This document shows, in pieces, positions 13,828 to 57,840 of a DNA stretch of 64,000 bases. Positions within the stretch are counted from its first letter, which is position 1; each line of letters opens with the position of its first letter. Both the position numbers and the translations under genes were made by a program. Location: positions 35,012,956-35,076,955 of the forward strand of contig OY997594.1 of assembly GCA_963921825.1 (NCBI GenBank). Reading direction: 5' to 3'. The notes under the pieces were generated by a model. It saw only the letters and a program-made list of their open reading frames with translations. It ran no database searches and was not told the DNA's origin. This DNA is from Erodium maritimum. Taxonomy: Eukaryota > Streptophyta > Magnoliopsida > Geraniales > Geraniaceae.

Positions 13828-14046
13828 GAAATGCATGTGACACTTGGTGGTGTCGTAGGATAAGTGAACTTATCGAACAATAGAAATGCATGTGACACTT
13901 GGTGGTGTCGTAGGATAAGTGAACTCATCGAACAATAGAAATGCATGTGACACTTGGTGGTGTCGTAGGATAAGTGAACGTATCGAACAATAGAAATGCA
14001 TGTGGCACTTGGTGGTGCTGTAGGTTAAGTAAACTGACCGAGCGAT
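13828..14046. repeat. 55-bp tandem repeat, 4 copies
   Basis: Four copies of a 55-bp unit containing gcatgtgacacttggtggtg, the last more diverged, inside the solo LTR. Related text (cggtgtcacatgcaattcta, reversed) occurs once at the matching place in the 9-kb element's LTRs. Confidence 0.9.
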
Positions 14047-24483: not shown

Positions 24484-26093
24484 AAATGATGAGATTGTGA
24501 TCTTTTTTAATTTGGGGTGTGCAATAAGAAGGGGATTATGTGGAGGCTTAATGGCACTAAACTATTCAAACCTTTATAGCTACATAGTGTTTGTTTTGGT
24601 CATAGAAAGGTGATGGAGTGAGTGAAGTGGGGCACAAAAGTTGCATACTAGAGGAGGAAGCATGCACATTGCACTCTCCATTACCCTCTTTCCCATTCAA
24701 ACTTAAGCTTTTAAACCAACCACTTACCACTTAAACTTCTATTTCTTTTATCTCTTCATCTCTATCCCTTTGAGTTAAAATCTGTCCATATAGATGAAAG
24801 TCTATTTGTTTATCATGAGATGTACATATTCATATATTTACTTTTATGTATTTGTTATTCTAACACATTTTTTTTGCATATAGATAGGATTAAAATGATT
24901 TATATATTATATAAAAACTATACATGTTAAGGTAGATCAGTGACATATCAGACTTCAAATACAATAAAGTTTAAATATGATATATCTTGACTTATCTAAA
25001 TATTTTTATAAGTAGACACCAAATTATTTTTCAAACATTTTCTTACATGAAACTTAGATACCATGGTTTCTGAAGTAAAGTATTTGTTACTCAACCTCTG
25101 TCATCTTTTGATTTGTTTACACCTTTGGGGTACTATAAACTCCATAGATAATGAAATAAATTAAAGTTAAGATCAGGACAGTTACTATATATGAATCCTT
25201 CTTTTTTTTTATATCGATCTTTCGAAAATCAAATAAAAATAACTAAATTAGGTAGAGATAACGGAAGTTGAATTAAATAACTATAGGAAAAGTAAATAAT
25301 ATCTTATACTTGTGTCATGGTTTTGGAACCACAAGTTTATATATAATAAATAGGTGGAGGGTCATCCAAAGGACACTGTACCTTTGGACTAGTTGGAATC
25401 AGCAAACACTCAAATGTAGCTGAATACTACCATGTTTTTTCTTGGTATAATTGTCCTTTTTCTCTTATTTTTGCTCCTCCTTTAAGAACTCGTAAATATA
25501 TTTTTTTTATCAGTAAAATTCACGGTACAGGAACGGAAAGAGAGAAAGAACTAACAGAAGCCACAAGGCCAAAAACAAAGAGCGAAGCCAAATCGAAAGA
25601 AAACGAGCACCAACGTTACGCCACACTCTCAAACATGTTAATAACTGGTATATATGTAAGTGTTGATCACTCCGATTCCCACGGTTAGGTCACCCCAGCA
25701 TAGCCCTGCTGGACAAAAAGGCAGAGAGTGGTATCAAACACAAGAAATAGGAAAAAGGGTGGAGAAGATTTGAGTTTGTGGGTGAAGAATAAAAAAACAG
25801 CCACAAGCACAAGCAGCCATCTCCACTTGAAAAAACAACAAAAAGTTGGAAGCAGAAGCAGAGATGTGATATTGATATATATGTGCATATGCCATATTGC
25901 CCTTGAAGGAAAAAAGTGGAAGATGACACAAGAAGTCTAGTACACCATTTTTAATCAGAATCACTCTCCACCCACCCACCAATCTCCCTCACACTTGTTC
26001 TTGCACACCACCTGTTTGTAAAAATTCCTCACAGAGTGTAACATGTGATACCCATCTGAAAAATTGAATCTTGATCCCTTCCAGCTTCACCCA
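24484..26093 (+). promoter_or_regulatory. Upstream region of the AHK1-type kinase
   Basis: A/T-rich DNA with no coding exon. At 25500-25640 a T-run plus atcagtaaaattcacgg looks like a short, 5'-truncated LINE tail on the minus strand. From 25930 to 26060 the sequence turns CT-rich (cactctccacccacccacc), a likely 5' leader. An in-frame TGA at 26046-26048 sits upstream of the chosen start codon. Confidence 0.5.
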
Positions 26094-29000
26094 ATGGGTT
26101 TTGGATCACCTCTGACCAAAGTTTTTCATACAGTTTCTAGCTTTGTGGTTCCATGGAGGAGGTACAGGGCTCCTCGTGGCCGCAGGATTTTTCACAGGGA
26201 TGTGGAGCAGGAGGAGTTCCAGTATGCAAGCACCCATTGCCTTTCTTCCTATTACAGCGTCTTCGTCGCTCGCCTAGCAATCATGGTTGGTCAACTTCTT
26301 CCTTTGTCTCTCCAACTGTTACTTAGTTTAGTGGTAGTAGAAAGTTTGGATTTTTATTTTCTGTCAGGGTGAGTAATATGATGCTATGGACCATTAGATT
26401 GTGTATACAAGCAGGAACAAATCAGTTTCTTGTGTTTGTTCATGTTTGATGATGGTGGACTCTGTTGGGTGTGGACCAATTTTTGAAACTGTAGCTACTG
26501 TGTTGGTGGTAGAGAGTAGTCTAATTTAGCAGTTTCAGATCAACCCATTTATGGTAGAGCAGCAATTATGATGATTTAGCAGTTTCAGATCAACCCATTC
26601 AGTCTTGCTGTTTACTTCTGCTGGAGACTTTTCTCTATTAATTTGAACATGAGAGATTATGTGAGTTGTTTTGTCTTAATGACTTGTGCAGGTGATGCTA
26701 GCAATTTTAATTGGTCTGTTAACCATATTAACATGGCATTTTACAAGGGTCTATACAACGAAATCATTGAACACCTTAGCATATGGTCTTCGCTACGAAC
26801 TTCTACAACGTCCCATATTGCGAATGTGGAACATCTTGAATTCCACTGTTGAGATAACTACGGCACAGGTTAAGTTGTCAGAGTTCGTATTCAAACGGTA
26901 TAGCAAGGCCGTCGATCAAGCAGAACAAGTAGAGGTTGATTTTCTGAACTTCATTTATCCCAGTCATTTGTCCCTCTTTTGGATGCATTTTTATTCAGTA
27001 TCTTTCTGAACCTTTTAGCAGCTGTATGAAACGATGAAGGAAGTAACTTGGGCACTATTTGCAAGTCGTAAGGCTCTCAATGCAATTACTATAAACTACC
27101 GAAACGGGTTTGTCCAGGCTTTCCACAGAGACCATAGGAGTAACAACACATTCTACATCTATTCTGATCTGGTGAATTATTCAATAAGTGCCCCTGCTTC
27201 TTATGATGCTAAGCTGCTCTCAACAAGACCTCAGGGGTGGAACGATCAATCAGTACATGGTAATCTTTCTGCAATTTGGTACCGTGAGCCTCTTGATCCT
27301 GTTACTGGTGAGAAGATTGGAAAGCCAAGGCCAATCCCTCCAGATGATCTGATCAACATAGCAGGCATTTCACAAGTACCTGATGGTGTAGCTTCATGGC
27401 ATGTGGCAGTGAGTAAGTACACTGATTCACCATTGCTTTCAGCGGCATTGCCTGTTTGGGATCCTTACAACAGAAGTATAGTGGCTGTGGTTGGTGTTAC
27501 CACTGCACTCTATAGTGTAGGGCAGCTGATGAAAGAACTTGTTGAATTTCATAGTGGACATATCTACTTGACCTCTCAAGAGGGTTACTTGCTTGCCACT
27601 TCAACGAATACTCCTCTCCTGACCAACTCAACTAAGGGGCCCAAACTTATGATGGCTGTTGATTCTGAGGATGGCGTGATTCGAGAGGGAGCCCAGTGGC
27701 TGCAAAGAGTCTATGGAAACAAATTTCACGATGTTCACGTAGAGAAAGCAAAGCTTGGTCACGAGCACTATTATATCGACTCATTTTTTCTAAATCTAGA
27801 GAGACTTCCTATGGTAAGTTTTAACTGTTCCAAGCCTCTTACTTACCATTGAATTAATGGGGACTAATACTATATCATGTAGAACTTGACAAGGTTTAGT
27901 GATTAACTGAAATGAGTTACATATTTCACAGGTGGGAGTGATAATCCTTCCAAGAAGATATATAATGGGGAAAGTAGATGAGAGAGCTTTGAAAACATTG
28001 ATCATACTGATATCTGCGTCTTTATGCATCCTAGTTATTGGATGTGTCTGCATATTTGTACTGACAAATGGAGTATCAAAGGAAATGAATCTAAGAGCCG
28101 AATTGATAAGCCATCTTGAAGCTAGAAGGAGGGCTGAGGCATCAAGCAACTACAAAAGCCAATTCCTAGCAAACATGAGGTGAAGCCAATTCACAGAATG
28201 TACTGATAATTTAGAGCACCCGAGATCAAGAATTTAAGTAGAAAACAATAATTTTTGTGCATTGCAGCCATGAATTGAGGACACCTATGGCTGCTGTGAT
28301 TGGGTTGCTGGACATTCTTATATGTGATGATTGTCTTACAAATGAACAATACTCAACAGTTACGCAGATTCGCAAGTGCTCAACAGCTCTTCTCCGGCTT
28401 CTTAACAACATACTGGACCTTAGTAAGGTGAGTTATACATGCATGTATATGTTTTTTTACTGGCATCTAAAACAATATCATACTGGTTATGGTAAAATGA
28501 TGCTTTTAACACAATTTATGAGTGAGAAAACCAGACAAAATAGATCCCACACCATATCTGAGACATGAAGAGTAAGGCTTCATGTCGAATGAGGTTCACA
28601 TCATAGCTTTGCGTATATTGTGAGTTTTGAGTGTGAAAACTCTGTTAAGAGAAGTGTGGTTTTATTCTGCCCAAGAGCTCATATTCTCTCTTTCAATAAT
28701 TTGTACAGGTCGAATCTGGAAAATTGGTGTTGGAAGAAGCTGACTTTGACTTGGGACGTGAACTTGAAGGACTCATGGATATGTTCTCTGTGCAGTGCAT
28801 TAACCATAATGTGGAAACTGTATTAGATCTATCTGGTACCACTCTAAATTTTTGCAGACCAATCATCTGCTTATATTTCTCAGTTTCTGGTGCTAACTTC
28901 GGTTTATTCATCATTTCACTCCAGATGATATGCCAAAAGTAGTTCGTGGAGACTCTGGTAGAGTTGTTCAAATATTTGCAAATTTGATCAGCAATTCGAT

Positions 29001-31735
29001 CAAATTCACAACATGTAAGTGAAGTTATTTCTGTTTCGACTTCTTCCAGGCTTAGCTTGCCTTATCAAGTAATGTGCACGTTGATCCATGTATCAAGTAT
29101 CAACACAACTGTGCAAGTTCTGATAAAAAAACACAACTGTGCAAGCATACAAGTTACTTAAGAGGAGATCATGCATTTCATGGCATCTAATTACTGTTCC
29201 AAATGGCTTACATACAGCTGGTCACATTATTCTGCGAGGATGGTGCGAGCACTCAAGAGGTCTAAATGACAATGATAAGTTATCCCTGGATTCAAAGAAG
29301 GCGCGTTCTACGCTGCTGAAACGTCAAGGGAGTCATGCCAAGAGAGCTAGTAAGAAAGACAACAGAGTGGCTCTCTGGTTTGAAGTTGATGACACTGGCT
29401 GTGGTACGTACCTACCTTACCTTACTACTTTCTGAAACCACCTTTACATGTTATGTTGCTATGAGAAGCATACACGCTCGCTTTCTTTCTGGCAAGCATT
29501 TAATGGTTTGCTTGATAGGAATTGATCAAAGCAAATGGGAGTCTGTTTTTGAAAGCTTTGAGCAAGCTGATCCCTCTACAACACGAACGTAAGTGGTTTC
29601 AACAACCTCACCATTCAAAACTCACTTATGAAATATAGAGTTATCCTGAAATGCTCTGTAATTTTCAGGCATGGTGGCACTGGTCTTGGCCTATGCATTG
29701 TAAGAACCTTGGTGAGTATCTTCACTAAGCTTATAGTTGCATTCGTTACACGGCGTGTATCAGCTGCACACGAACACAAATCTGCAGTACATTAGTACAT
29801 TCTTTTAAATGTTTGTCGAGAATAAACCCATCTTATGATGACAGGTTAACAAAATGGGTGGAGAGATCAAGGTTTTAAAGAAGAATGGCCAAGGAACTCT
29901 AATGCAGTTGTACCTACTTCTCAATACGCCAGTTAATTGTACAGAGCATCATTGCCAAGTGGATTTTGCAAAGCATAAGTTAGTGGTGAGTAAAACTATC
30001 CTCTTCTCGACAAAAGCACATGTTATGATTATGTGGCTTAAGTTCACCAATTATCATACGCTGAGAAGATTGAAACCTCTAATTAACTCAGGATTTTCAC
30101 ATCAAAACCAAACTAGCAGTACTTGTTTGGCTTGCATTGGAGTATCTCCTTCATGTTATAGTAATTCTAAATCCAACTAAACCTTCATGTTATAGTAACA
30201 AAACTGACCTTAAAGTTTGAGCTGCTATTTGTAGCAAAATAAATGAAACTTTTCATGGTATCTGAGCTTGGTTTGGTATCAGGCTTGTGACATGGTTGTG
30301 TTTCCTCCCTGTTTGTGTGCCCTGCATACACGTGAAGGAGAATGTTAAAGTCACACGCATTACAAGATTGTGAAGTTAATAAACACTTTTGAAACACAAT
30401 TGAAATGTGATTGCAGGTGTTGCTTGCTCTGCACGGTATAAAGGGTAGGCTCATTACAGCCCAGTGGTTACAGAAAAAAGGAGTGGTGACTTCTGAAGCA
30501 TCAGAGTGGAATGAACTGACACATATCCTCAGGGAACTTTTCCAAGCCAGAAGTTCATCCCCAAATATCAGCTGTGACACAAAGTATTCAACAAGTGCTG
30601 CTTTGAAAGCTCAAGCACTAAGCATACACAACATGGAGAATCCAGTGTTTATCATAGTCATCGATATAGGGCTGCTCGACTTGAGCACAGTCATCTGGAA
30701 GGATCAACTCAATTTCCTCGACAATTTCTATGAGAAGGTAAAGTTCGCGTGGATGCTAAACCACGACACGCCTAATGCCATAAAGATGGAGCTTCGGAGG
30801 AAAGGGCATCTACTGATGGTTAATAAGCCACTATATAAAGCCAAAATGCTACATATTTTGGAAGCTGTCATAAAGATGAGGGATGTTGAAGTTGAGGAGG
30901 AAACCCGGAATGGCTTGAATACACATGAGTGCCTTGAGATTGACCCTGTTCATCTCGGTGTTGCCAGCTCTGATGATTCAGATAAGTCTGAAGTTGGTAG
31001 TCCTAACTCTGTTGCTGCATTTCATATAGAGGACAAACAAAGAGAGAGAATTGGAGGACCTCGTGGAAATGGCTTAGTTGAGCTCAATCATGCATATAAA
31101 ACAGAAAATTCTTCAAGGACAGAGGGGTTGAAGCGCAACTCACATGACATCGAACCGAAAATGGGAAGCCAACAAGCATCAAATTCAGGAGTAGGAAGAT
31201 CAAAGGAACTAAAAAAAGGTATGAATAAGCACAAGTCTCTTGAAGGGGTTCGGATACTGCTTGCTGAAGATACACCTGTGCTGCAAAGAGTGGCAACAAT
31301 AATGCTGGAAAAGATGGGGGCTACAGTCATCGCCGTGGGAGACGGACATCAGGCTGTAGAAGCTCTTAACAGTTCAGAAATCTCCGACTCCAATTCCCCT
31401 GCATATGATTTGGTCTTGATGGATTGTCAGGTAAGAAACACAAATGAACAAAGCTAAGGCATTTATATATATCATGTTAATTTGCTATATGACTTTAAAA
31501 TATGAATGTTGTAAAACAGATGCCGAAAATGGATGGTTATGAAGCGACTAAAGCGATAAGGAAATCAGAAGCAGGAACAAGTGTGCACATACCCATTGTT
31601 GCACTGACAGCCCACGCAATGTCATCAGATGAGGCCAAGTGCTTGGAGGTGGGCATGGATGCGTATCTTACAAAACCAATAGACTACAAGCTCATGGTGT
31701 CCACCATTCTCTCACTCACTAAGCTGTCTAGCTAA
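26094..31735 (+). CDS. AHK1: AHK1-type hybrid histidine kinase (osmosensor)
   Basis: Thirteen coding exons: 26094-26285, 26692-26934, 27022-27813, 27932-28179, 28268-28427, 28709-28835, 28925-29014, 29218-29403, 29519-29588, 29669-29711, 29845-29985, 30417-31430 and 31520-31735. They encode 1173 residues, near the known AHK1 size. Membrane segments at about 57-78 and 432-453 bracket an extracytosolic sensor region. The HisKA phosphoacceptor is His493 ([12 protein letters not shown]). ATPase boxes follow: N-box 607-611 (NLISN), DDTGCG and [10 protein letters not shown]. The C-terminal receiver has LLAEDTPV, phosphoacceptor Asp1100 (VLMDCQMP) and Lys1154 (LTKPID). The kinase relays phosphate His to Asp and then to phosphotransfer proteins; AHK1 acts in osmotic and drought sensing in Arabidopsis. 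It starts at the first in-frame ATG. All catalytic residues are present. Confidence 0.96.
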
Positions 31736-31977: not shown

Positions 31978-32017
31978 TCACTTGGTTTTTCTGTGGATTC
32001 CATACAAGTAACCAAGG

Positions 32018-35000
32018 TGTCACGCCCCAATTTTAGTAAAACCGAACTAGGGACGTGAACATTTAAAGTAATAAAACCGTTTGAAACCTGTTGTGAATAA
32101 ACACTTTAAAATCACCATTTGTTCAACAAAATAATATTTACAACTCAAAATCAGTCCCAACAAGTGGACAAAACAAGGTATCCGTCACTAGACTCAAAAG
32201 TAAAACCCAGAATCCCGCTCCTAGCTCTTCAAGCTTCAGAAGCTCACCTAGTCCAACCTGCGACCGGTACCTGTAGGAAAAGCAGCTAGGGGTGAGCGTT
32301 CGCTCACCACCACAGATAACAGACTGACTACGGCATAATTAGCAGACAATGCCGGTAACACCAACAACAAACTCAACACCGGGGATCACTGTCCCCAACT
32401 CAAGTACTCCGACTGACACACACCCACGGTGACCTTCCTCGAATGACTCGACACTTGACACGTAAAATAGACCCGACACAACGATTGACGACCTCCTCCA
32501 AAGACTCAAGAGACCACCACGCAACACCCAAGATCACAAAGGATCGCACACCAAACAATATCACAAAGTATCGCATACCAACTACTCAGTAACCTCCCCC
32601 ACTCACACGAACACGGATCAGGCTAGCCAAAGAATGCTTACAACCTGTTGATACTCGACCACGGATCAGGCTAGCCAACGAATGCTTACAACCTGTTGAT
32701 ACTCAAACTCGGATCAGGCTAGCCAAATAATGCTTACAACCTGTTGATACTCAACTTGGTCAGGCCAACCCAAGAATGCTTGCAACCTGCCGGGATTCAA
32801 ACTTAGTCAGGCCAGCCCAAGAATGCTTGCAACCTACCGGGAATCAAAATTGGTCAGGCCAGCCAACGAATGCTTGCAACCTACCGGGATCCGCAATCAC
32901 AATCACAAGCAAGGTTCAACCAACAGTAACAGACCGACTCAACACACCAACAGTAAAACACGGACTCAATAATCCAAATCATTCACAGGCACTCACGGCC
33001 TCCCAAGACACACCAACAGTAACTCACGGGCTCAACAACTCCACGGCACTCACGGCCACCCAAGACACGCCAACAGTAACTCACGGGCTCAACAACCCCA
33101 CGGCACTCACGGCCACTCAAGACACCAACAATAAGCAACACGGGTTCAATAACCCAACGGCACTCACGGCCACCCAAGACACCAATAATAAAGCAACACG
33201 GGTTCAACAACCCTACGACACTCACGGCCACCCAAGACACCGATAATAAAGTAACACGGGTTCAGCAACCCAACGGGCCCTCATGGCCACTCAAGATACC
33301 AACGGTAAAGTACGGGTTCACAACCCCACGGGCACTCACGGCCACCCAAAACACCGATAATAATACCACGGGCTCTCATGGCCACCCAAGACTCGACAAT
33401 AATAACACGGGCTCTCATGGCCACCCAAACTCAATAATAATACACGGGTTCTCATGGCCACCCAAGACATCTACAATAATACACGGGCTCTCATGGCCAC
33501 CCAAGACACAAATGAAACAGTCAACCTCCGGGCATGGTCATATGCCTCCAGTACTTCTAATATCACTAAGTTCTCTGCTCCTACGACACTACTAAGTGTC
33601 ACATGCTTTTCTCATAAACGCTACGTTCCCGTATCATGCTTTTCTAATATTCGATAAACCTAATTAACCCACGACACCCCGGTGTCACATGCAATTCTAC
33701 TGTTAACTTTCCCTAGTCAGGGCCGAGATCTGACTACTTTTCCCTACCTCGTGCGTGTTCTCCCAAAAGCCTACCCACGAGCTTCGGTGATGATCTCAGT
33801 CACTCACCCAGTTTTCCCTTGCCTCGGTCCGTGGCACGATCTAAAAGAACACAATTTTCAATGCACTTTAACTCGCAGGAAATAAGGTGAAATTTAATAA
33901 ACTTAACGCCCAAACGTAACCCCGACAATGTCGATCACTCCCAAACTTCCCAATTACTCGACATTGTCGATAAAGGACTCGTAAAGGCCCGATTCGCCCG
34001 ACATGGCAAATCTGCCCGGGTTTTGTGAATGCCCTTCCGGGGCTCCAAAAATTCCCATTTTCGTTTCTACGGTCTTAGAATAATTCAAGGATCCCAATGC
34101 ACTTGACGGGATCGAATTCCGACTTCCGAGTCGATTAATTAACGTTTAAAGTTTCTAAAACCCGTTAATTACAACTTTTCCAAATTAATTCCAATTTTCG
34201 ATTCGGTTAAGGATAAATGGTCCGGGGAACGTTTTAAACCTCCCGAACATTAAACCCGAGCACGTGGGCCCCACCCGGCCCACTTGGCCGTGAGCCCTAA
34301 GGTTCAAGGGGGGCTCGGCCACCATGGTGGTGGCTGGTCCCAGCTCCGGCCAGCCACCCCATGGCCGGCCGGCCACCACCCGCGGTGGCCGGAGCTCCTC
34401 CCGAGCTTCCGGTCACTGGAAAACGTGCAATCACACCTCCAAACACCTCTAAAACGTCTCCAACACTTCCCCAACCTCAATACACCCCTAACCCATTCAT
34501 TTTAACGAAACCCTATCTTTTGAAATTAAACAAAACGACGATCGGTTTAGTACAAACCGTAGAGGAGGATGAGGGGAACTAGATTGCTCCTTGCCTTGAG
34601 ACGATCCAAAGGTGGCATGACGTGAATAGTGGCTTCACAACCTCAACTCCCTCTCTTCTTCTTCTCCTTTTCTCCCTTTCTTCTCTCTTCTTTCTCTTTC
34701 TAAAACAACTAACTCTAATTTCTATTTTTTTTCCTTTTTGCCCTATATGGCCGACCACCTCTTGTACCCTCATAGTTTCCCCCCAAAACTAACACCACCA
34801 CATAATGGACAAGTGTCAAGGTGGGTCCCACACCTTTTGGAAAATATATACTTGATATTTTCCAATCAGATTCGCGAAAATCGGACGTTTCGGGACCCGA
34901 ACGGGTACTTTTCCCAAGAAATTACGAAACTTGGCGGGCTACAAGGAAACGGCTCAACTAAGACCGCTGTGACGGCGGCTAAGCCTTTTGCATCCAAAAC

Positions 35001-35243
35001 GGTCTTCGAATGGAACAAAACGTCGCTCGGTTGACTTTTCCAACGAAAAAGTCAACATTTCCCAAACTGGTAAGACAATTGCCCTGAGTCCCCCGGAACT
35101 CACTTTGGTCAACAAAGGGGTCAACTTAAGTCCGGTATGACTCTCGGGGTCATTTTAGGTTCAATTAAGTGTCTGTCTTAAAATTTTTAAATTTTCCTGT
35201 TTTTCGCAGGTTTGACTGGCGTTGACCGGGAGTGGTTATTATA
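32018..35243 (-). repeat. LTR (3' LTR in element orientation)
   Basis: This copy starts TGTCACGCCCCAATTTT in plus orientation and ends TTATA, where its partner has the canonical TTACA. It contains the long minisatellite zone 32610-33500 and CT-rich DNA at 34645-34700. Confidence 0.92.
32608..33500. repeat. LTR minisatellites, two successive arrays
   Basis: About six or seven units of roughly 48 bp with ggatcaggctagccaa and aatgcttacaacctgttgat (32608-32895), then about ten units of 45-60 bp with ctcacggccacccaagacac (32980-33500). Open frames here are translations of the repeat, not genes. Confidence 0.9.
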
Positions 35244-35244
35244 A

Positions 35245-35260
35245 TCTACCCCCCTTAAAG
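35245..35260 (-). other. Polypurine tract
   Basis: On the minus strand, CTTTAAGGGGGGTAGA lies directly before the 3' LTR. It is the expected plus-strand priming site. Confidence 0.85.
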
Positions 35261-35278
35261 GAATTTCGTCCGCGAAAT

Positions 35279-36441
35279 TTAGAACAACGCCCATATAAGA
35301 TACAACAAATACGTACCCTGAAAGGTCTCGCGGTAGGTAGGGGATCCTGGGGTCTGGGAGTCGGTAACCGCGTACACTCTTCCCTCCGACTCCTGCTGCC
35401 TCTGACCCGGCGCACTGACTGCTGGATACCCATAGCCCTGTTGCTGACTCAGAGCCGGCGCGTTCGTCGACGGCTGCGAAAACCTCGACTGTTGGCTCTG
35501 ACGCGGGCGAACTCCGGACGACTGCGCGGTATACGACTGTTGCGGTCGCCGCGCTGAGGTCGCTCCCAACAGCTCTCGGCACCATGCCACCGTGTATCCC
35601 ACCCAGCCGCACCGGAAACACCTCCTATCGTCAGCCCTCGGCTCCATGTCCTGGCCTGCCTGGCTTGTCGCTGGCAGCGCCGTGGGCCCTACTCTCATCG
35701 GACACTCTCGCTGGAAGTGGCCTCGCTGCCCGCAGGTGAAACATGTCGGCCCCCTCCTTGAGGCGACTGGTCACACTGACGCTACAGACCCCTCTGTCTC
35801 GCTCCGTCCCGCTGAGCATGTGGCCTGAAGAACCCCGTGGTCCTCTGTCTCATCGGGTCTCGGGACTCGGACTGCCCCGCAACACTGATCGGCCGCTGTC
35901 GAACCTCACGGGTCCTGGCCGCATCCCGGATATCCTGCTCCATTGTCGCTGTAGTGTCCCGCGACCTCGAGGCGAGGACTTGGTCCCGAGCCACCGGCCT
36001 CAGTCCCCCCTCGAACCTTATGCCACAGTTCTGCTCTGTCACCACCGTCTCTGGCGCAAATCTGGTCAGGGCCGTGAATCTGGCCTCGTATTCTGCCACT
36101 GACATCTCCTCCTGCTGCAGGTCCAGAAACTGCCGATGTCGGTCCAACCGAGCCGACATTCGACTGGCGATGATCGCCACCAAACTCTGTACTGCCCTGG
36201 TCAGCTCGTCCAGGGTGGTCGTGGTGGGAGGGTCTGCGACCGGCGGGACGCGGGGCATGCCCGTAGATGGTCCCGCGTCGCTCCTCCTGTCTTCTCCGAC
36301 AAGAGTACCCTGAGCCTCCGCGTACTCAGCGGGCACAACGGTGGGCACCCTTCCTGGTGTCTCTGCTGACCGTCCCCCTCTGCCACGCGCGGGCGCCCGT
36401 CCCCATGTCACAGTTGATCCTCTTCGTCTACCCCGAGCCAT
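35279..36441 (-). pseudogene. gag of the Ty3-type element, shortened and frameshifted
   Basis: The frame opens at 36441 (MARGRRRGSTVTWGRAPARG) and runs to 35782. It includes the end of the retrotransposon gag core, FLDLQQEEMSVAEYEARFTA. The first half of that core is missing: the sequence jumps from RMSARLDRHR directly into the QFLDLQQ block. After a frame change come two CCHC knuckles. The first is intact (35702-35743, CFTCGQRGHFQREC). The second has Tyr in place of His (35579-35620, CFRCGWVGYTVAWC). The protein then reaches GRVYAVT, where protease would begin, and ends. Gag packages element RNA, but this copy is probably not functional. Confidence 0.85.
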
Positions 36442-36904
36442 CTCTCAGTATCCTCTGCACGGATACATGCAAACGTTTAGTCTGCGAATTTAAATGACGA
36501 CAACAAGCTCCAACACACTAGCGCTCACACGTTCTACGTCTGTACAACCCTCACACGGTTCTCTATGCATTCACTTATAACTTTCCGCAACCAAACCAGT
36601 GTTCGCTACTCGTCCCCTGCGGGAAAAGTAGTAAAGGGGATGAGCGTTATGCTCACCTCCACGGACACCCGTTCGATTATGGCATACTAGTAACGCACTA
36701 AAGACTTACCGATCTAACTAGGGCAAACCACTACCTCAACACCTGATGCCAACGTCACACCACTCACGCTATTAATACTTTAGTTACTAGAACACGTAAG
36801 CGAAACCTCAAACCAACCACACAACTGCACACCAAGTCACGCAACAACAAACCTAATCCGCACAACGAAACAAACAAAGATAAATTCTAAAAGCGGCTCA
36901 TTGA

Positions 36905-37130
36905 CCAGGCCGGCACACGACCCGGGCCGTGCCACCCTCCGGGCCGGTAACCAAGTCGGGCCGTGCCCCATACCGGGCCGGCACCAAGGCCCTGCCGTGC
37001 CCCCTACTGGGCCGACGCCCAAACCCTGCCGGGCCCCTTACCAGGCCGGCACACAAACCGTTCCGTCTCACCTACAGGGCCGGTACTCAGTCCTGCCCAT
37101 TTCACCTCCCGGGCCAAACCAGTGACCCCA
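36905..37130. repeat. GC-rich minisatellite in the element leader
   Basis: About seven degenerate units of 30-37 bp around ccgggccgtgcc and gggccggcac, in the non-coding leader between primer site and gag. The short frames here follow the repeat. Confidence 0.8.
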
Positions 37131-37740
37131 ATTTCGTAGCGGTGATAATTTCGCACTACTTACACCCGCTATGTCTACCCTAGGGTATTCGTAACTTTCC
37201 CGCCTAATAGCGACCCGTACACTAGTACGTCGCAGAAAAACGACCACCAAACACATAACACAAGTACGGCAACTCAAGACCGACGTCAAACACAAGCCAA
37301 CACGGCCGAGTAACAACAATACATGCCCACCGGGCCATCCAACACCGAACCACGCCCACCGGACCAATCAAAATCAAACACACACGCCCACGGCGTCAAA
37401 CAAAATCAAAACCCGCCCACCGGGCCAACCAATTCTAAAACTTTCCCCTTTTTAACTTAAAACCTCAGACTTGACATCACGCAGTTACAACCCGGTCCAG
37501 GCGTCCCCGAACTACGTCGTACCGACTTGATGTCAGCACGGTCACGTTCGACTACAGGAGCGCTCCTGAGTCGACCCGCGACGGCTTAAAAAACGTTTCA
37601 AGCAGCAACAACAATCAGCAAGCCAGCAATAAAACACTGCACATACACACAATCCCAACCAAGACTCATAACACTACGGGTCTACAATGACTCGACCCTC
37701 CCCACCTAATTGACACACGGTCCGAGGTGTGAAACCTCGA

Positions 37741-37752
37741 GCTCTGATACCA
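37741..37752 (-). other. Primer binding site for initiator tRNA-Met
   Basis: On the minus strand, TGGTATCAGAGC follows the 5' LTR after a 3-base gap. It is the standard plant LTR retrotransposon primer site, complementary to the 3' end of tRNA-iMet. Confidence 0.93.
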
Positions 37753-37755
37753 AGC

Positions 37756-40700
37756 TGTCACGCCCCAATTTTAGTAAAACCGAACTAGGGACACGAACAT
37801 TTAAAATAATAAAACCGTTTGAAACCTGTTTTGAATAAACACTTTAAAATCACCCTTTGTTCAACAAAATAATATTTACAACTCAAAATCAGTCCCAACA
37901 AGTGGACAAAACAAGGTATCCGTCACTAGACTCAAAAGTAAAACCCAGAATCCCGCTCCTAGCTCTTCAAGCTTCAGAAGCTCACCTAGTCCAACCTGCG
38001 ACCGGTACCTGTAGGAAAAGCAGCTAGGGGTGAGCGTTCGCTCACCACCACAGATAACAGACTAACTACGGCATAATTAGCAGACAATGCCGGTAACACC
38101 GACAACAAACTCAACACCGGGGATCACTGTCCCCAACTCAAGTACTCCGACTGACACACACCCACAGTGACCTTCCTCGAATGACTCGACACTTGACACG
38201 TAAAGTAGACCCGACACAACGATTGACGACCTCCTCCAAAGACTCAAGAGACCACCACGGAACACCCAAGATCACAAAGGATCGCACACCAAACAAGATC
38301 ACAAAGTATCGCATACCCACTGCTCAGTAACCTCCCCCACTCACACGAACACGAATCAGGCTAGCCAAAGAATGCTTACAACCTGTTGATACTCGACCAC
38401 GGATCAGGCTAGCCAACGAATGCTTACAACCTGTTGATACTCAAACTCGGATCAGGCTAGCCAAATACTGCTTACAACCTGTTGATACTCAACTTGGTCA
38501 GGCCAGCCCAAGAATGCTTGCAACCTGCCGGGATTCAAACTTAGTCAGGCCAGCCCAAGAATGCTTGCAACCTACCGGGATTCAAACTTGGTCAGGCCAG
38601 CCAACGAATGCTTGCAACCTACCGGGATCCGCAATCACAATCACAAGCAAGGTTCAACCAACAGTAACAGACCGGTTCAACACTCCACAGGCACTCATGG
38701 CCACACAAGACACCAACAGTAAAACACGGACTCAACAATCCAAATCATTCACAGGCACTCACGGCCTCCCAAGACACACCAACAGTAACTCACGGGCTCA
38801 ACAACCCCACGGCACTCACGACCACCCAAGAAACGCCAACAGTAACTCACGAGCTCAACAACCCCACAGCACTCACGGCCACTCAAGACACCAACAATAA
38901 GAAACACGAGTTCAATAACCCAACGGCACACACGGCCACCCAAGACACCAATAATAAAGCAACACGGGTTCAACAACCCTACGACACTCACGGCCACCCA
39001 AGACACCGATAATAAAGTAACACGGGTTCAGCAACCCAACGGGCCCTCATGGCCACCCAAGACACCAACGGTAAAGTACGTGTTCACAACCCCACGGGCA
39101 CTCACGACCACCCAAAACACCGATAATAATACCACGGGCTCTCATGGACACCCAAGACTCGACAATAATAACACGGGCTCTCATGGCCACCCAAACTCAA
39201 TAATAATACACGGGCTCTCATGGCCACCCAAGACATCTACAATAATACACGGGCTCTCATGGCCACCCAAAACACAAATGAAACAGTCAACCTCCGGGCA
39301 TGGTCATATGCCTCCAGTACTTCTAATATCACTAAGTTCTCTGCTCTTACGACACTACTAAGTGTCACATGCTTTTCTCATAAACGCTACGTTCCCGTAT
39401 CATGCTTTTCTAATATTCGATAAATCTAATTAACCCATGACACCCCGGTGTCACATGCAATTCTACTGTTAACTTTCCCTAGTCAGGGCCGAGATCCGGC
39501 TACTTTTCCCTACCTCGTGCGTGTTCTCCCAAAAGCCAACCCACGAGCTCCGGTGATGATCTCAGTCACTCACCCAGCTTTCCCTTGCCTCGGTCCGTGG
39601 CACGATCTAAAAGAACACAATTTTCAATGCACTTTAACTCGCAGGAAATAAGGTGAAATTTAATAAACTTAACGCCCAAACGTAACCCCGACAATGTCGA
39701 TCACTCCCAAACTTCCCAATTACTCGACATTGTCGATAAAGGACTCGTAAAGGCCCGATTCGCCCGACATGGAAAATCTGCCCGGGTTTTGTGAATGCCC
39801 TTCCGGGGCTCCAAAAATTCCCGTTTTCGTTTCTACGGTCTTAGAATAATTCAAGGATCCCAATGCACTTGACGGGATCGAATGCCGACTTCCGAGTCGA
39901 TTAATTAACGTTTAAAGTTTCTAAAACCCGTTAATTACAACTTTTCCGAATTAATTCCAATTTTTGATTCGGTTAAGGATAAATGGTCCGGGGAACGTTT
40001 TAAACCTCCCGAACACTAAACCCGAGCACGTGGGCCCCACCCGACCCACTTGGCCGTGAGCCCTAGGGTTCAAGGGGTGCTCGGCCACCATGGTGGTGGC
40101 TGGTCCCAGCTCCTGCCAGCCACCCCATGGCTGGCCGGCCACCACCCACGGTGGCCGGAGCTCCTCCCGAGCTTCCGGTCACCGAAAAACGTGCAATCAC
40201 ACCTCCAAACACCTCTAAAACGTCTCCAACACTTCCCCAACCTCAATACACCCCTAACCCATTCATTTTAACGAAACCCTAGCTTTTGAAATTAAACAAA
40301 ACGACGATCGGTTTAGTACAAACCGTAGAGGAGGATGAGGGGAACTAGATTGCTCCTTGCCTTGAGACGATCCAAAGGTGGGATGACGTGAATAGTGGCT
40401 TCACAACCTCAACTCCCTCTCTTCTTCTTCTCCTTTTCTCCCTTTCTTCTCTCTTCTTTCTCTTTCTAAAACAACTAACTCTAATTTCTATTTTTTTTCC
40501 TTTTTGCCCTAATGGCCGGCCACCTCTTGTCCCCTCATAGTTTCCCCCCAAAACTAACACCACCACATAATGGACAAGTGTCAAGGTGGGTCCCACACCT
40601 TTTGGAAAATATCTACTTGATATTTTCCAATCAGATTCGCGAAAATCGGACGTTTCGGGCCCCGAACGGGCACTTTTCCCAAGAAATTACGAAACTTGGC

Positions 40701-41007
40701 GGGCTACAAGGAAACGGCTCAACTAAGACCGCTGCGACGACGGCTAAGCCTTTTGGATCCAAAACGGTCTTCGAATGGACCAAAATGTCGCTCGGTTGAC
40801 TTTTCCAACGAAAAGTCAACATTTCCCAAACTGATCAGACAGTTGCCCTGAGTCCCTCGAAACTCACTTTGTTCAACAACGGGGTCAACTTAAGTCTGGT
40901 ATGACTCTCAGGGTCATTTTAGGTTCAATTAAGTGTCTGTCTTAAATTTTTTAAATTTTCCTGTTTTTCACAGATTTGACTGGCGTTGAACGAGAGTGGT
41001 TATTACA
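37756..41007 (-). repeat. LTR (5' LTR in element orientation)
   Basis: Same structure as the copy at 32018-35243, ending in canonical TTACA. It carries extra minisatellite units around 38672-38730 that the other copy lacks, which accounts for its greater length. Confidence 0.92.
38340..39270. repeat. LTR minisatellites, partner copy
   Basis: Same two arrays as at 32608-33500, with slightly different unit numbers and several scattered substitutions. Confidence 0.9.
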
Positions 41008-41529
41008 CAAGGAACCCCACAACTGCAGCTCCAAAAGCCCTCTGTGCTAATATTGTACTCTTCTTTGATGTTGGCTTGAAGCATGAGGAAGGTGGAACAA
41101 AGCCTAGCTCTGATAATTTTTTGTTCTGCAAAAAATGCTTCCTCGTCCTGTCATAATGTCACGTAAATGAAGGAAAAATTAGATGTTTTTCTTTTGGCAG
41201 CTCAAGAATTCATATATAAGCCATACAAATACAATACAACCTCTGCATATAGTTCCATTAAGCTTTTGAAGTTTTACAAGTATTGTCAACAAAGAGTCTA
41301 ATTGACACACCAAATCTAAACTAGTTAAGCCAATTATGAGACATTGGTTGGTAATAGTTGTAATTAGAACTTTGTTCAGTAATACCCTTTTTAGCATCTG
41401 GCAGACGACCTTCTTCAGGAGATTCTAGTGAATCCTGACAGTTAATTACCTTTCTACCGGGAGAAAAGTCAATTCCAGTGACTTCAACTGCAACAACATC
41501 AGCAAGCTGAAATCCCAAATTTGATTTAA

Positions 41530-42401
41530 ATTTTCAAACCGAGACAAGACTATATGTTCTGCTAGAAAGAAAAAAAGTGTACATGAAGCTAAAATAGGTG
41601 AGTAAAACTGAAAATGTGGGTTTAGATAAGACAGACTTAAAAACGAAACTAGACTTAAAAACGAACCAAATCGAAAGTTTCAGGACACCGGAGAAGGTTG
41701 AGGGAGGAGGGAAGAGGCCGGGGACGACGCCGGCGAAGTGCGGATGGCCGGGGACGACACCGGCGGAGGAGGGATGCCGGAGACCACGCCGGAGAAGACG
41801 AGTTCGCGAGCAGCTCCGGGTTTTTTTTTAATATAAATAAAATTAATTTTTTAAAAAAATAAAACTGTTTTTAATAAAAAAAATATTTTTATATAAAAAA
41901 ATTGATTTTATGTATTTTTTAAAATAAAATCTGATTTTTTGAAATTAAAAAATGAATTTGTAAAAAAAAAACTGATTTTGTTTTAAAATTATTGAAATTT
42001 TCAGTTTAACACCCTAAACAATGAAGGGTATTATTGTCATTTCACTTCTTTTCAAATTCTGAGTCAGTGGCATGAGATGAAAATTTGAGTAATAGTTAGG
42101 GGTATTTTGGACATTTTACCCTGCTGGGTATGAAAGTGAAATTAAAAGTTTGGTTAGGGTATGAAACTGAAAAAAATTTATGCCAGGGTATTAAACTGAA
42201 GTTAAATGTTTGACAGAGTGGTAAAATGAAATTTTCCCTAAGTTTTAACTTGAATGCATATCTAATTCATCTCACACAAAGTATCATTCATAAGCAAAGC
42301 ATCTTGAGTTAGTCATGTAGACATGCAAAAACCCAAGTGACATAGAACATAGTAAGTAAGCATGAGATCATCCATCAAATAACAAATGAAACTGACCATT
42401 T
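41530..42401. other. A/T-rich repeat-like block with a GC-rich island
   Basis: A GC-rich piece (41690-41820, with ccggggacgacgccggcg) is followed by 180 bp of A/T-rich DNA and then a block with repeated gggtatgaaactgaaa-type text up to 42240. That last text resembles ends of plant MITE or Mutator-type elements, but I could not find the partner end or a target duplication. No coding exon is supported. Confidence 0.4.
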
Positions 42402-42548
42402 TCATTCACACTTACTTTTTTTTATCAGTAAAGCAAATTTAAATTAAACATCTCTCAAAGATGAAAAGGAGTACAAACAAGAAAGTCTAGCTACACACTC
42501 CCCAACAAAAAACAGACCACAACAAAGACTCCAACACCACTAGAAACT

Positions 42549-42656
42549 ATGAATGGGTACACAGACCCTGAAGTTATGAATGAGTACGCAGACCCGGAAG
42601 CAATGAATGGGTACGCAGACCCTGAAGCTATGAATGGGTACGCAGACCCAGAAGTC
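42549..42656. repeat. 27-bp tandem repeat, 4 copies
   Basis: Four units of 27 bp, atgaatgggtacgcagaccc plus tgaagtt with variants. The unit length is a multiple of three, so the frame stays open through it (NGYADPE repeated). Confidence 0.92.
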
Positions 42657-42675
42657 CCACACCGGGGAAGATCAA

Positions 42676-42802
42676 CAACCACAACACGAGCATGGCGCTC
42701 TGAAAACGAGCATGTCGCTCTGAATACAATCACGAGCATGACGCTCGGAATACAACCACGAGCATGGCGCTCAAAATACTACCACGAGCATGACGCTCGG
42801 AA
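42676..42802. repeat. Degenerate 25-30-bp tandem repeat
   Basis: Five units built on acgagcatggcgctc with variable spacers, directly after the 27-bp array in the same element. Confidence 0.85.
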
Positions 42803-44849
42803 GACAACCAATAAACACACCAAAAAGGTCTTTTACCCGTATTTTCCAACCATTAAGCACACGGGATACTGGCTTAGAACCTACCACAAGCCAGTATCAG
42901 TACCTGAACGAGCCGCTAGATCCACGACGATCAACACCTTGAAGGATAAAGAAACGCGTCCCACGACCGGATCTAAAATGAAACGCCAGGAAAACTCCCG
43001 ATCCACTAGAAGCAGCAAGAGCAGCTCCGCAACGATCCCCACCCTGAATGATGAAGAAGCGCGTCCCACGACCAGAGCTGGAAGTATACACCTCTAATGA
43101 CCCGAGAGTAGCTCCTCCTTGGCGAGGGACTAATCAAACGCTGGAGCACATACTTAGCCCTCCGAAATATAAATCCGGACTACACCGAGAAAAGGCCATA
43201 AGGAGGAGGACTGTTATTTCTACCAAGTACAAGCTACGAGCTCCAAGCCGGCAGGAGCAAGTCATCACGTCTGGGGATCTGAGGCTGGTATGTGAGCTGA
43301 ACATTCCGATACCGTGACCGGTAACCCCTCGTTGGCCAACACCAAGCGAGGACCCGAAGAGGAAGACCTGTAATTATATCGAGCACGAACTAGCCTAAAC
43401 CTAGACAATTCTGACATCAAAGCTAGCTACCAAAAGCAGATCGACCGATAAGTAGGATTTACCGGTGGCCAACACTTGAAAATCCGGCAAAAAATCTACC
43501 CAAAAACCGATTCCTTAAGGAGGCTCCCCAAGCTCCAATGGACTGAGATGTTTGCCCTTGTACGCTGAGATGGAATTGCTTGTTGCATAGAAGCGATCCG
43601 TAGCAGGAGACGAGTAATACTGAACATCCAATACCCCCAGCAGCAAAGAACTCCTCTGGTCTCAAGCACTCCGAACCAACACCGGAGAATAACGAGCTGT
43701 GGCCAACACATCAACAGCTACACGCGAACACCTCTACCAAATCCTCACGATCAACCAGCCAGGGGATGTGAAATGCGTCCCACTGCAGGACGAGGAAGAG
43801 ATGGCGTGACTCACCAAAGGTACGGTTGGAGGAAGCAATGAGACCCGGAGTTCGGGCGGTCCCTAGGAACGGGGGACTAATGGTGCGCGCGCCAAGAGGA
43901 CCACCAGAATCAGATTCGTTCCGGCAAGGACAAATCCGGCGAGCTCCCTCATCAATGACCCAAACCCGTAGACCAAAATCACCACGCGACCGAGGCTCTT
44001 TCAGATCAGCAACAGAGGAACTGTAGGAACCACTGAAACTAGAACCGACTCTGTCGGCCAGAGTCGACCAACACTGTCCCTCCCACCATGCTACCAAGGC
44101 TCATACTCGTATGGAACTATGCTTGTAATGTGTGGCGGAACTGGTTTTGGAACTCCATTATAGGGACAAGGAGATGGAGAGTTGGAGGAACCTTCGGAAC
44201 CACTGAAACCAGAATGTACTCGACCGGCTGGAGTCGACCAACACCACCCCTTTCCAGCAAATGTCCGACCACTGAAGCTCTGAAAGATGTCAGATCTGGA
44301 TCCCGGAGCAGAGCAAGACGAAGTCGAGAAAGATGTGGTCAGCAGGTTCGCGACCACCACACACACTCCACGCCTCCAACGAGCCACGACCAGAAGACCT
44401 GAACATCACCGACAACGCAAAGATGTTGGCCGAAGGACAAGATCTCACCATCGAAGTGCACGCAAGAAACCTGGCCGGAGCAGAGTCGGGGTCTTGACCG
44501 AGAGACCCAGCCAAGAGAGGGCTCAGCACGACCCGGGAACGACGGCGACACCACGAGTGGAACCACAGCCAGGGAAGAGGCCCTCACCAACCTTCAAAGC
44601 CCTGCACCGAAAGAAGAGTTCGCCGGAGCAATGGGAAGATGACCAGTCGAGATCGAGTGCGAGATCTAAGAGAAAAGAAGGGGAAAAGGCTTGGGAAGGA
44701 AGAAGGGAGATGAGAGGGAGGCTGTCGACGATCGACCAGACCCGTAGGTTCGGTGAACCGCCGACGGCGACCAAAGGGAGAAACGAACTCTAGGGTTTAA
44801 CTGTAGCAAAACGAGAGAGAAAAGTTCGAGTCGATAAATCTCATTCACA

Positions 44850-45587
44850 ATCACTTAACTGATGTTATTACATGAATTTATACATTAGTAGTTTCACTTT
44901 CATTCTATATAACCCAAATGTTATAAATATAACTATGTCAAAACAAATCTTTTAAAAGTGTATTATATTCACCTGGTAAAGATCAGTATATGAAATTTTA
45001 GTATGTTTAGCCTCCGCTTCTTCTGAGGACTAGAATCCAAAATCAACCAAAATTGAATTTCACCAACAAACTTAAGAAATCAAGATGTGTATCTAAGAAA
45101 TTGTGATTATTATTTCAAAATTAAAAGAAGAAACCCACCACATAAATCAACTCTAATCCTCAAGCCAAGCCATTGTTGGAGGCGTGGCCGCACTCTTGGT
45201 CAGTCCTGATAGAACCATTAGCACCTTCTGTATTGGTCTTAGCATCATAGTTCCATCGTCATGCCAACGAGCTGGACATCAAAAGAAAAACAATTAAAAT
45301 TGATTGATTTTTAGAAGAAAAGAAAAGGAAATAAATGAAAATAATGAAAACGAAAAATGAAAATATTTTATAATTAATGAAACTAAATAAAAATAATAAT
45401 TTTTTTTTAATTTTAATATAAAAATTAAACTTAATAACTAAAAACTTTATGGAAAATAGTTAACGATTTGACGAAAATTTTTTAATTAAAGAATTAAGTA
45501 ACGAATAATAATTAACAAAGAATGATAACATAGTTTTTCAATTCATATGAACAAGTTAATTTAAATTTAGAAGAAACAGAAAACAAA
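44850..45587. other. Introns and flank of the peroxidase pseudogene
   Basis: Apart from the two pseudogene exons at 44973-45022 and 45139-45271, this is A/T-rich DNA. The missing first peroxidase exon is not visible between 45272 and the LINE that starts near 45588. Confidence 0.6.
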
Positions 45588-45642
45588 TTCTCTCTCGAAT
45601 TGCGAGATTTTTCTCTTTACCAAGGAAATCCTAGCCTCACCT

Positions 45643-47129
45643 ATGGAGTCCCTTACTCCTGCCGCCAATGTGACTGTTGTCTCTACCGCCGGTCATGTCT
45701 CATTGTATCCCCACATGGTGCAGCACTCGCCATTTGTGCTACCACCACGCCTCTCCTCGGAGGTCGTGTTCCCTATCAAAACAAGACGAAACCGGAAGAC
45801 AAAGAAATCTATGGCTTTGGTCCCTTTCCCTTCTTCTTTCAAAGTCTTCTCTCGACTCCAACACCATTAGTGTCCCCGACCTTCGTTCTGGGCTCTTCCG
45901 AGCCATTGGTGAAGCCACGACGGGGCCGTCCTCTCAAGGCTAAAACCCTAACGTCTTCTCCAAGTCTTGTTAGGGTTTCGACGTCTCCATCATGGACGGT
46001 CAATCCTGTCGCCTCGCCTCCGTCCCAGGCTTCGACGATTGCCTCAGCTCCTCAACTGCCACCGGAATCTCGCGCTCCTAGCACGCTGCAATTGACGGTG
46101 ACTCCGCCATCTACTCTGGGTTTTATTCCTCTGCGAGGCAGAGTGGAAGCGAGGCTTTCGGGGTCAGCCATCTCGTCTGATCCTCCCACGAGGGTGGGAG
46201 TCTTCTCCCCAGGCTCTTCTGATCCGGTGGGCAGTCGCCCCTTCGTGCCTAAAACCCTAGCTTTAGACACAAGTTACGCTAGGGTTCTGAAGGTTGTTGT
46301 CTCTATCCCGCCGCCTCCACTAATTAAAGACCCATCTCGGGGGAAGGTCCCTATGGTCGATATGGAGAGGGATGAACCGGGCCGGAAGGAGTTGAATGAC
46401 CTATGTGAGGGGATCATCGTCCCCAATGGTGATCGGGTGCCAATTATTCCGGCTTACTCTCTCCTTCTCCGGATATGGTCCACCGTTGTAGAACTTTAAA
46501 GCCCAAGGACACCAGGACCGCCTTGAAAATATCAGAACTGTCGGTGTCGCTGGAGTCCAATCTACTCAACCTCCATGATGGCCTCTTGTCCTGCTCGTTG
46601 GAGGAGAAGGAAGAGGAGGTGGTTGAAGTCTTGTACCTTCCGGTGAGCACGTCGATCCTCGCACGGTAATAGTTTGCCATGTTGGGCAAACTGTGGACCT
46701 CCAAGCCACCCCGGAAGGAGGCCCTTCTTCGGATACTCTCTCGGGCTTGGGGGAAGTCGGCCGAGGGTTTGGTCATAAAGGACATTATGAGTGCACGCCC
46801 ACGACCTCCCTCTCGTAGTGCGCACCAAAACCGCGAGAGAGACGATCGACTCGACTCTAAGATTGTGCGTCGAGGTCCCGTGTGACCAATGGGGTATCTG
46901 TTGGGGAGGTGTAATGAAAGTCCGCTTTTTGCACCTTGTGGAGCGTCTTATTCGCCGCCAGCTCCTGCCCCGATTCTGGAAAGTCCTCGAGCCAGTTTGT
47001 GTCACTCTTACCTTTACCAAACTTCCCGTGTTTTGCTTTAACTATGGCCTAATTGGTCACATGCTAGCCGATTGTGATAGGGAGTTAGTGGGTAAGCACA
47101 AATTGGACTCCTCCGTCCTGGAGTATTAG
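45643..47129 (+). pseudogene. LINE ORF1 with DUF4283 and degraded zinc knuckle
   Basis: The frame starts MESLTPAANVTVVSTAG and is proline and serine rich. It shifts several times. Around 46680-46770 the text GKLWTSKPPRKEALLRILSR matches the DUF4283 domain of plant LINE and gag-like proteins. Near 47025-47075, PVFCFNYGLIGHMLADC is the CCHC knuckle with Tyr replacing the second Cys. ORF1 proteins bind the element RNA. The frameshifts and lost cysteine make this a relic. Confidence 0.82.
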
Positions 47130-47361
47130 AAGGATTGCCACCCGAAGACGTACGCGACGGACTAGGACAATTAGACTCCCCGTCATCGGTGTCCTCGACG
47201 TCTACACCTCAGGGTCCCTTGTATAGGGGTAGGTTCCCAATTGTATCCTCGGGTACTTCACCTTAGGGTGTGAGCCATCGGCGGGTCTCTCAATCACAAC
47301 TGGTTGACCTAGGTTGGAAAAACTTGGTGATCGGCCAACCGGTCAGGGGAAGAAAAGCTGA

Positions 47362-47375
47362 CCCCCCCCCCCCCC
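47362..47375. repeat. Poly-C run of 14
   Basis: Uninterrupted C-run just past the LINE ORF1 fragment, followed by more C-rich text (tatccccccaccc). Confidence 0.95.
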
Positions 47376-47380
47376 TATCC

Positions 47381-47784
47381 CCCCACCCCTGCCTGTGCAT
47401 AGAGATAACTGGACTCTAAGCCGGAGCTGAGTCTAGTTGTGGAGCGGGAGGTGTGGGAGTGAAATAGGGTTCTATAAGGGAACCTCGAGATGATGAAGAT
47501 CAGGTTGGGAAGATGGCCCGAATGGAGGAATGAAAGGGATACACTGCTCTAGGGAATGGCCTTGGGAGGGGTCCCTGGGAAGAGCTCTGCCTCCCTTAGA
47601 AGCTGGTGTCAACAGGTTCAATATCATTCTATAAAATATGCACTAGTTAGGCAAGACCTTGAGCAGTAGACACCAGTTTCATTGTTATTTACTTTTTGTT
47701 CGCCTTTATGGCTCCACAACAAACCGCTTGTGTCGATTTTTTAGTCACAGAGCTATGCGTAGACAGACCTTAAGGGCTCGATAC
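47381..47784. other. Spacer, no gene seen
   Basis: No coding frame or known repeat is supported. It may include the degraded tail of the LINE fragment on its left. Confidence 0.4.
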
Positions 47785-47792
47785 CATGTAAT

Positions 47793-54795: not shown

Positions 54796-57720
<2,925 letters not shown>

Positions 57721-57730
<10 letters not shown>

Positions 57731-57840
57731 TTGAAACTAGGTTATGCTCTACTTGTTGAAGAAGCTGCATCAAGTCAAAACGTCTTGTGATTGAAACTAG
57801 GTTATGCTCTAATTGTTGAAGAAGCTGCATCAAGTCAAAA
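57721..57840 (+). repeat. 60-bp tandem duplication across the ROP stop codon
   Basis: Two 60-bp copies (57721-57780, 57781-57840), identical except one base (ctctacttg versus ctctaattg). The unit starts cgtcttgtgattgaaactag, so it includes the last codons, the stop and part of the 3' UTR. The second stop context lies in the UTR and does not alter the protein. Confidence 0.97.

Follow-up and report, generated by a model that had tools for sequence, protein, structure and literature searches.

A dead ascorbate peroxidase gene of the membrane-anchored class in Erodium maritimum, probably broken before a retrotransposon split its last exon

The question raised by this locus is how the end of a gene can come to lie some 9 kb away from the rest of it, and whether the mobile element in between killed the gene or arrived when it was already dead. 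The window, meaning the whole stretch of 64,000 nucleotides that was analysed, comes from Erodium maritimum (GenBank assembly GCA_963921825.1, contig OY997594.1, hereafter C7; C7:35012956-35076955). Its minus strand carries what is, as judged from sequence, a broken gene of the peroxisomal, membrane-anchored (APX3-type) class of ascorbate peroxidase (APX). As the original prediction had proposed, this pseudogene adjoins an AHK1-like histidine kinase gene, and its parts have been scattered across 13 kb by no fewer than two insertions, one a long terminal repeat (LTR) retrotransposon and the other an element resembling a long interspersed nuclear element (LINE). A complete twin of the gene lies on another contig of the same genome, C2, at 15442711-15444754. 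Exons 2, 3, 4 and 5, the tail of exon 8 and exon 9 were recognised, and in the order of the minus strand the pieces and the insertions are as follows.

45139..45271, minus strand: pseudo-exon 2, with the WHD active-site region (tblastn, spliced alignment, DNA alignment to the C2 twin)
44973..45022, minus strand: exon 3, frame open and GT/AG splice signals retained (tblastn, spliced alignment, DNA alignment to C2)
42411..44840, minus strand: LINE-like retroposon, inserted in the intron that separates exons 3 and 4 (A-tail, target duplication of 9 bp)
41450..41506, minus strand: exon 4, with a 9-bp in-frame deletion (spliced alignment, comparison with C2)
41435..41449, minus strand: relic of intron 4, 15 nt (GTAATTAACTGTCAG), against 76 nt in the C2 twin (spliced alignment, comparison with C2)
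41386..41434, minus strand: exon 5, donor GT retained (spliced alignment, DNA alignment to C2)
41241..41281, minus strand: exon 8, its 3' end with MELYAE and the donor site, firm at 41241-41255 and tentative above that (DNA alignment to C2)
41013..41147, minus strand: first part of exon 9, with a 14-bp frame-breaking deletion (DNA alignment to C2)
41008..41012, no strand: target-site duplication CAAGG, with an identical copy at 32013-32017
32018..41007, minus strand: LTR retrotransposon with two 3.2-kb LTRs (edges, CAAGG duplication, LTR pair)
31978..32017, minus strand: last 12 codons of exon 9 and the stop, past the retrotransposon (tblastn, 11-mer ranking, DNA alignment to C2)

The identity of the gene is carried by the pieces taken together. 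A spliced, frameshift-tolerant alignment of the whole scored 294, the maximum among 60 shuffled proteins being 57, and when the joined 92-residue 5' part was compared with solved structures, ascorbate peroxidases were the best 24 of 60 entries among 100 matched at E <= 1, with a best E of 1.1e-13. The two exons that had been predicted beyond the LINE, 44973-45022 and 45139-45271, were recovered by both tblastn and spliced alignment. The introns with GT/AG signals sit at the positions of the twin's introns, so this is not a processed copy. The C-terminal hydrophobic anchor, basic tail and stop match the last exon of three complete genes in the same genome, and it is from the anchor only that we infer a peroxisomal location for the ancestral product. 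Chance assembly of the blocks was ruled out by the shuffles and rankings, and an origin of the fragments in several families by the finding that they align in order to one family, as one gene. The anchor piece found nothing convincing among solved structures (only Sec61 gamma, at E 0.43 or worse), a search of NCBIfam with two pieces gave no matches, and neither did a search of the window with Rfam.

The split of the last exon can be followed letter by letter. On the minus strand, ...STILAQRAFGAAVVGFL runs to one edge of the retrotransposon, ...QRAFGAAVVGFL being the last residues before that edge, and LGYLYGIHRKTK followed by a stop stands directly past the opposite edge. Among the 6508 stop-terminated 11-mers on both strands of the window, this 11-residue tail ranked first (score 30, next best 20) against an APX3 C-terminus. 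When the element and one CAAGG copy were excised, the tblastn alignment crossed the join at 60.5 to 65.9 bits, and exon 9 of the C2 twin aligned as DNA in one piece over 209 columns at 78%, from window position 41153 to 31973 across the excised element. The latter is the strongest proof of the split exon. The claim that the last 12 codons lie about 9 kb away, past the edge of the retrotransposon, is therefore borne out by exact edges, paired CAAGG copies and alignments through the join, and the anchor segment does align across the removed element.

The plant's own genome (763 Mb, 40 contigs) supplies sequences for comparison. The last-exon peptide matched six places in it, the window included. 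Nine-exon anchored APX genes with all exons open stand at three of them (C2:15.44 Mb, C7:26.6 Mb and C9:62.0 Mb), and no APX was seen at the two weakest of the five other places. Pfam peroxidase scored the C2 protein at 166 bits, and at the DNA level the C2 gene aligned with exons 2, 3, 4, 5, the end of 8, and 9 of the window. Over five exons, 373 of 450 exon bases of the pseudogene are identical in the C2 gene, compared with 323/450 at C7:26.6 Mb and 311/438 on C9, so that by base identity C2 is the closest of the three complete genes; over exon 4 alone, C2 and C7:26.6 Mb tie at 48/57 each. The window gene belongs to a duplicated pair of which the C2 copy is complete.

Relative to this twin, the window gene is damaged at several points. 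Exon 2 shows a 1-bp deletion and a 5-bp insertion, with a further 4-bp insertion after the acceptor that was read by eye from the aligned strings, and exon 9 has lost 14 bp and, in frame, another 9 bp. Counted together, exons 2 and 9 contain no fewer than three indels that break the frame, or four with the one read by eye; two further indels keep the frame. Intron 4, shrunk to its 15 nt, still begins with GT and ends with AG and can now be read through in frame. Where C2 has 591 bp (extracted-locus positions 6850-7440), the window has 122 bp with only the end of exon 8 left; exons 6 and 7 were not recognisable in those 122 bp, and nothing convincing for them was found in the 64-kb window. Exon 1 was likewise not found in the window (best match E 1.5), and the best matches there for residues 136-200 had E 0.29 or worse; all of these lay elsewhere or out of frame. 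The search of the plant's genome gave no match to exon 1, 6 or 7 at C7:35 Mb. These results indicate that exons 1 and 6-7 are not merely displaced within the window. In grass pAPX genes exon 6 holds the heme-binding site, and the last exon holds the transmembrane domain and sorting signal (PMC9747090). As neither exon 6 nor exon 7 was found, the remnant is not expected to yield a working peroxidase. With no open frame for a working enzyme, it is a pseudogene of the family, one that most likely cannot make a peroxidase and is without function.

The order of decay and insertion can be estimated from divergence. The two LTRs are 96.5% identical (Kimura two-parameter distance 0.0266), which at rates of 1.3e-8 and 7e-9 gives an insertion age of about 1.0-1.9 million years. 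Comparison of the pseudogene with C2 gives a corrected divergence of 0.27 at third positions (34 of 149 different) and of 0.19 over all positions (77 of 450), seven to ten times that of the LTRs. Over the age of the LTRs, 0.21 indels would be expected in 450 exonic bp and at least three frame-breaking ones are seen (P 0.0013); the indel rate used here was derived from the 3 gaps between the aligned LTRs, and exons may have a different rate. Because the indels are too many for the age of the LTRs, the element would have entered an already dead gene. The retrotransposon thus most likely landed late; it dispersed the gene and probably did not cause its decay.

The neighbourhood of the dead gene suggests where the redundancy came from. 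Three of its genes matter here.

25990..31735, plus strand: AHK1-like hybrid histidine kinase gene, 5' limit approximate, the convergent neighbour of APX
55229..57731, plus strand: ROP/Rac small GTPase gene (extent of the alignment), an anchor common to C2
3534..7572, plus strand: RPN10-like proteasome subunit gene (extent of the alignment), an anchor common to C2, with Pfam VWA_2 in one exon

The kinase gene, which carries HisKA and receiver domains and which we take to be AHK1, ends 242 bp from the APX stop, measured stop to stop; the third gene is taken to be RPN10-like. C2:15417264-15465220 is collinear with C7:35081426-35016489 in antiparallel order through four anchors, namely an unnamed block, the ROP gene, APX and the RPN10-like gene. 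The data cover roughly 48 kb on C2 and, in all, some 94 kb on C7, of which about 65 kb holds the anchors, and 19 of the 27 matched pieces, counted by hand, fall on one antiparallel line. About 10 kb separates the dead APX from ROP in the window, against about 1.6 kb from the aligned ROP end to the APX start on C2.

AHK1 was not detected on the C2 side. Its DNA gave one 21-bp match only (E 0.076) in the 15,030-bp C2 interval between APX and the RPN10-like gene, two pieces of its protein gave no match there, and none of the 16 receiver-domain matches genome-wide lies on C2. On C2 every one of the nine APX exons is open and AHK1 is undetected, while on C7 AHK1 is present and APX is broken, so the duplicated regions appear to have lost opposite neighbours, C2 keeping APX and C7 keeping AHK1. 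A close relative of AHK1 at C1:11.92 Mb is 91% and 79% identical on two exons. No APX, ROP or RPN10-like match better than chance was found in the 20 kb around it, and probes for ROP and the RPN10-like gene matched nothing in six loci flanking the remaining APX and AHK1 copies. The synonymous divergence (dS; codons with gaps or stops excluded) between the C7 and C1 AHK1 genes is 0.685, a value inflated by a poorly aligned linker. Because it is close to the value for the C7/C9 APX pair (0.657) and larger than the C7-C2 values for ROP (0.255 on 6 of 7 exons, the remaining exon alone giving 0.441) and for the RPN10-like gene (0.456; 106 codons, 4 of 5 aligned patterns), it hints that the C1 copy came from an event older than the C7-C2 duplication. 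A match of C1 to window 45586-47792 was rejected as collinearity, since two copies of that family stand near the C7:26.6-Mb APX.

We put a probability of roughly 0.9 on the following reading: the C7/C2 segment was duplicated, the redundant APX copy decayed in the window, and the LTR element later split its last exon. A segment with RPN10-like, AHK1, APX3-type and ROP genes would have been duplicated, its copies now standing on C7 and C2. The window APX would then have decayed through small deletions and insertions, the loss of exons 6-7 and the shrinkage of intron 4, and the retrotransposon would have entered the last exon afterwards and cut off the final 12 codons. The LINE-like element may have entered its intron at any point relative to these steps.

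Several results weigh against parts of this reading. The joined 5' pieces reached 24.6 bits with Pfam peroxidase, below the 27-bit cut-off, and three single pieces scanned with Pfam gave no match. At the protein level exon 2 is 61.8% identical to C2 and 67.9% to each of the other two genes, and taken by themselves exons 2 and 3 do not point to C2. Among the 27 matched pieces, two are an inverted pair next to the RPN10-like gene, and six (58-291 bp, repeat-like) lie off the line. The C1 AHK1 gene could be the C2 copy, moved rather than lost, and because the dS values of the anchors differ, a single duplication event is likely rather than proved. A substitution test for relaxed constraint found 18/274 vs 11/274 changes at first and second positions (P 0.25), which runs in the same direction as the indels but is not significant.

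That last result also bears on the other way of ordering the events, in which the gene was still working when the LTR retrotransposon landed in its last exon and killed it, all other damage coming afterwards. The insertion does part the end of the anchor and the tail from the rest of the gene, and the LTRs are still 96.5% alike. Against the 0.21 indels expected since then, however, stand the frame-breaking and in-frame indels, the loss of exons 6-7 and the collapse of an intron; even with a rate drawn from three LTR gaps, which may not hold in exons, and with the substitution test short of significance, we regard this order as improbable and reject the insertion as the cause of death on the indel count.

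How the two copies arose leaves somewhat more room. APX and ROP could have reached one place through a small segmental copy rather than a chromosome or genome duplication, as the ROP dS, lower than those of the AHK1 C7-C1 and other APX pairs, and the limited extent of C2 compared would allow; against it, four anchors keep a single antiparallel order across roughly 48 kb on C2 and 65 kb on C7, AHK1 turning up only on the latter, which makes this reading unlikely. It is very improbable that the remnant still acts, for example by giving rise to antisense transcripts or small RNAs directed at the living APX genes. Transcription of AHK1 runs towards the remnant from a convergent position, and immediately downstream of AHK1 there is a 40-nt stretch with 92.5% identity to the C2 APX, but the sequence common to the remnant and the C2 gene is short.

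The two insertions differ in how well they can be classified. The LTR element has LTRs at 32018-35241 and 37756-41007 with about 2.5 kb between them, gag (PF03732) and zinc-knuckle (PF00098) domains on the minus strand, and a primer-site sequence that we take to be of the tRNA-Met type. No pol domain was found in the 5 of its 18 open frames (>=100 aa) that were scanned. Relatives of its LTR lie in opposite orientation at window 12399-13982 and 19148-19567 (71-81%, one short piece 87%). The original prediction had called the second insertion a LINE. Its retroposon hallmarks stand, namely an A-tail and the 9-bp target duplication TCATTCACA at 42402 and 44841, and the name is drawn from them; none of 7 of the 8 open frames of at least 90 aa in 42411-44840 held a coding domain over the cut-off, and it would be at best a non-autonomous or truncated LINE copy. 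A second copy of parts of this element, 73-85% similar, lies at window 62545-63315.

Other repeats surround the dead gene. The A+T-rich, insertion-like stretch at window 41660-42240, within the interval between exons 3 and 4, has short inverted repeats and is possibly a further mobile element. Window 45534-47792 belongs to an unnamed repeat family with a 321-aa open frame without a Pfam match; of its copies (64-71%), two lie close to the C7:26.6-Mb APX and one upstream of the C1 AHK1 relative. A reverse-transcriptase domain (PF00078) lies on the minus strand at 50623-51219, between the dead APX and ROP.

The literature searched held no report of an APX pseudogene or of APX3-AHK1 synteny. Arabidopsis locus numbers, if close numbers mean close genes, suggest an old linkage: AHK1 (At2g17820; PMC7718014) is numbered close to ROP3 (At2g17800; PMC9456112), APX3 (At4g35000; PMC4802093) close to ROP6 (At4g35020; PMC9456112), and ROP5 (At4g35950; PMC9456112) close to APX5 (At4g35970; PMC4802093). 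From these numbers we infer that no APX stands beside AHK1 and ROP3 and no AHK1 beside APX3 and ROP6, which would match the opposite losses seen here. It is an unlikely idea that AHK1, APX3-type and ROP genes were anciently linked in eudicots and that duplicated AHK1-APX pairs lose opposite members independently across lineages. If the same has happened in many plants, keeping both members of the closely spaced convergent pair AHK1-APX in duplicate may be disfavoured. The opposite losses of these adjacent convergent genes offer a testable case for asking whether neighbours disappear independently of each other. The locus may also serve as a datable snapshot of how a duplicate gene disappears, with small indels and exon loss first and dispersal by mobile elements later.

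Set against known systems, the locus has three counterparts. The LTR element resembles the gag-only TR-GAG elements in its gag and zinc knuckle, long LTRs and internal region of about 2.5 kb, although the absence of pol is judged from the 5 of 18 frames. The gene shares with pAPX genes of the APX3/APX5 type its exon order, splice phases, active-site exon, the motif KKLSELGF and, in the last exon, a hydrophobic anchor followed by a basic tail, and departs from them in that exons 1, 6 and 7 were not found, the frame is broken in exons 2 and 9 and the last exon is split by a retrotransposon. The third parallel is with fractionated plant duplicates, in which one copy is complete and the other decays within a collinear block; here, by contrast, the dead copy is still legible and the other block lacks the neighbouring gene. 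The locus is an ordinary case of duplicate-gene fractionation that happens to be unusually readable.

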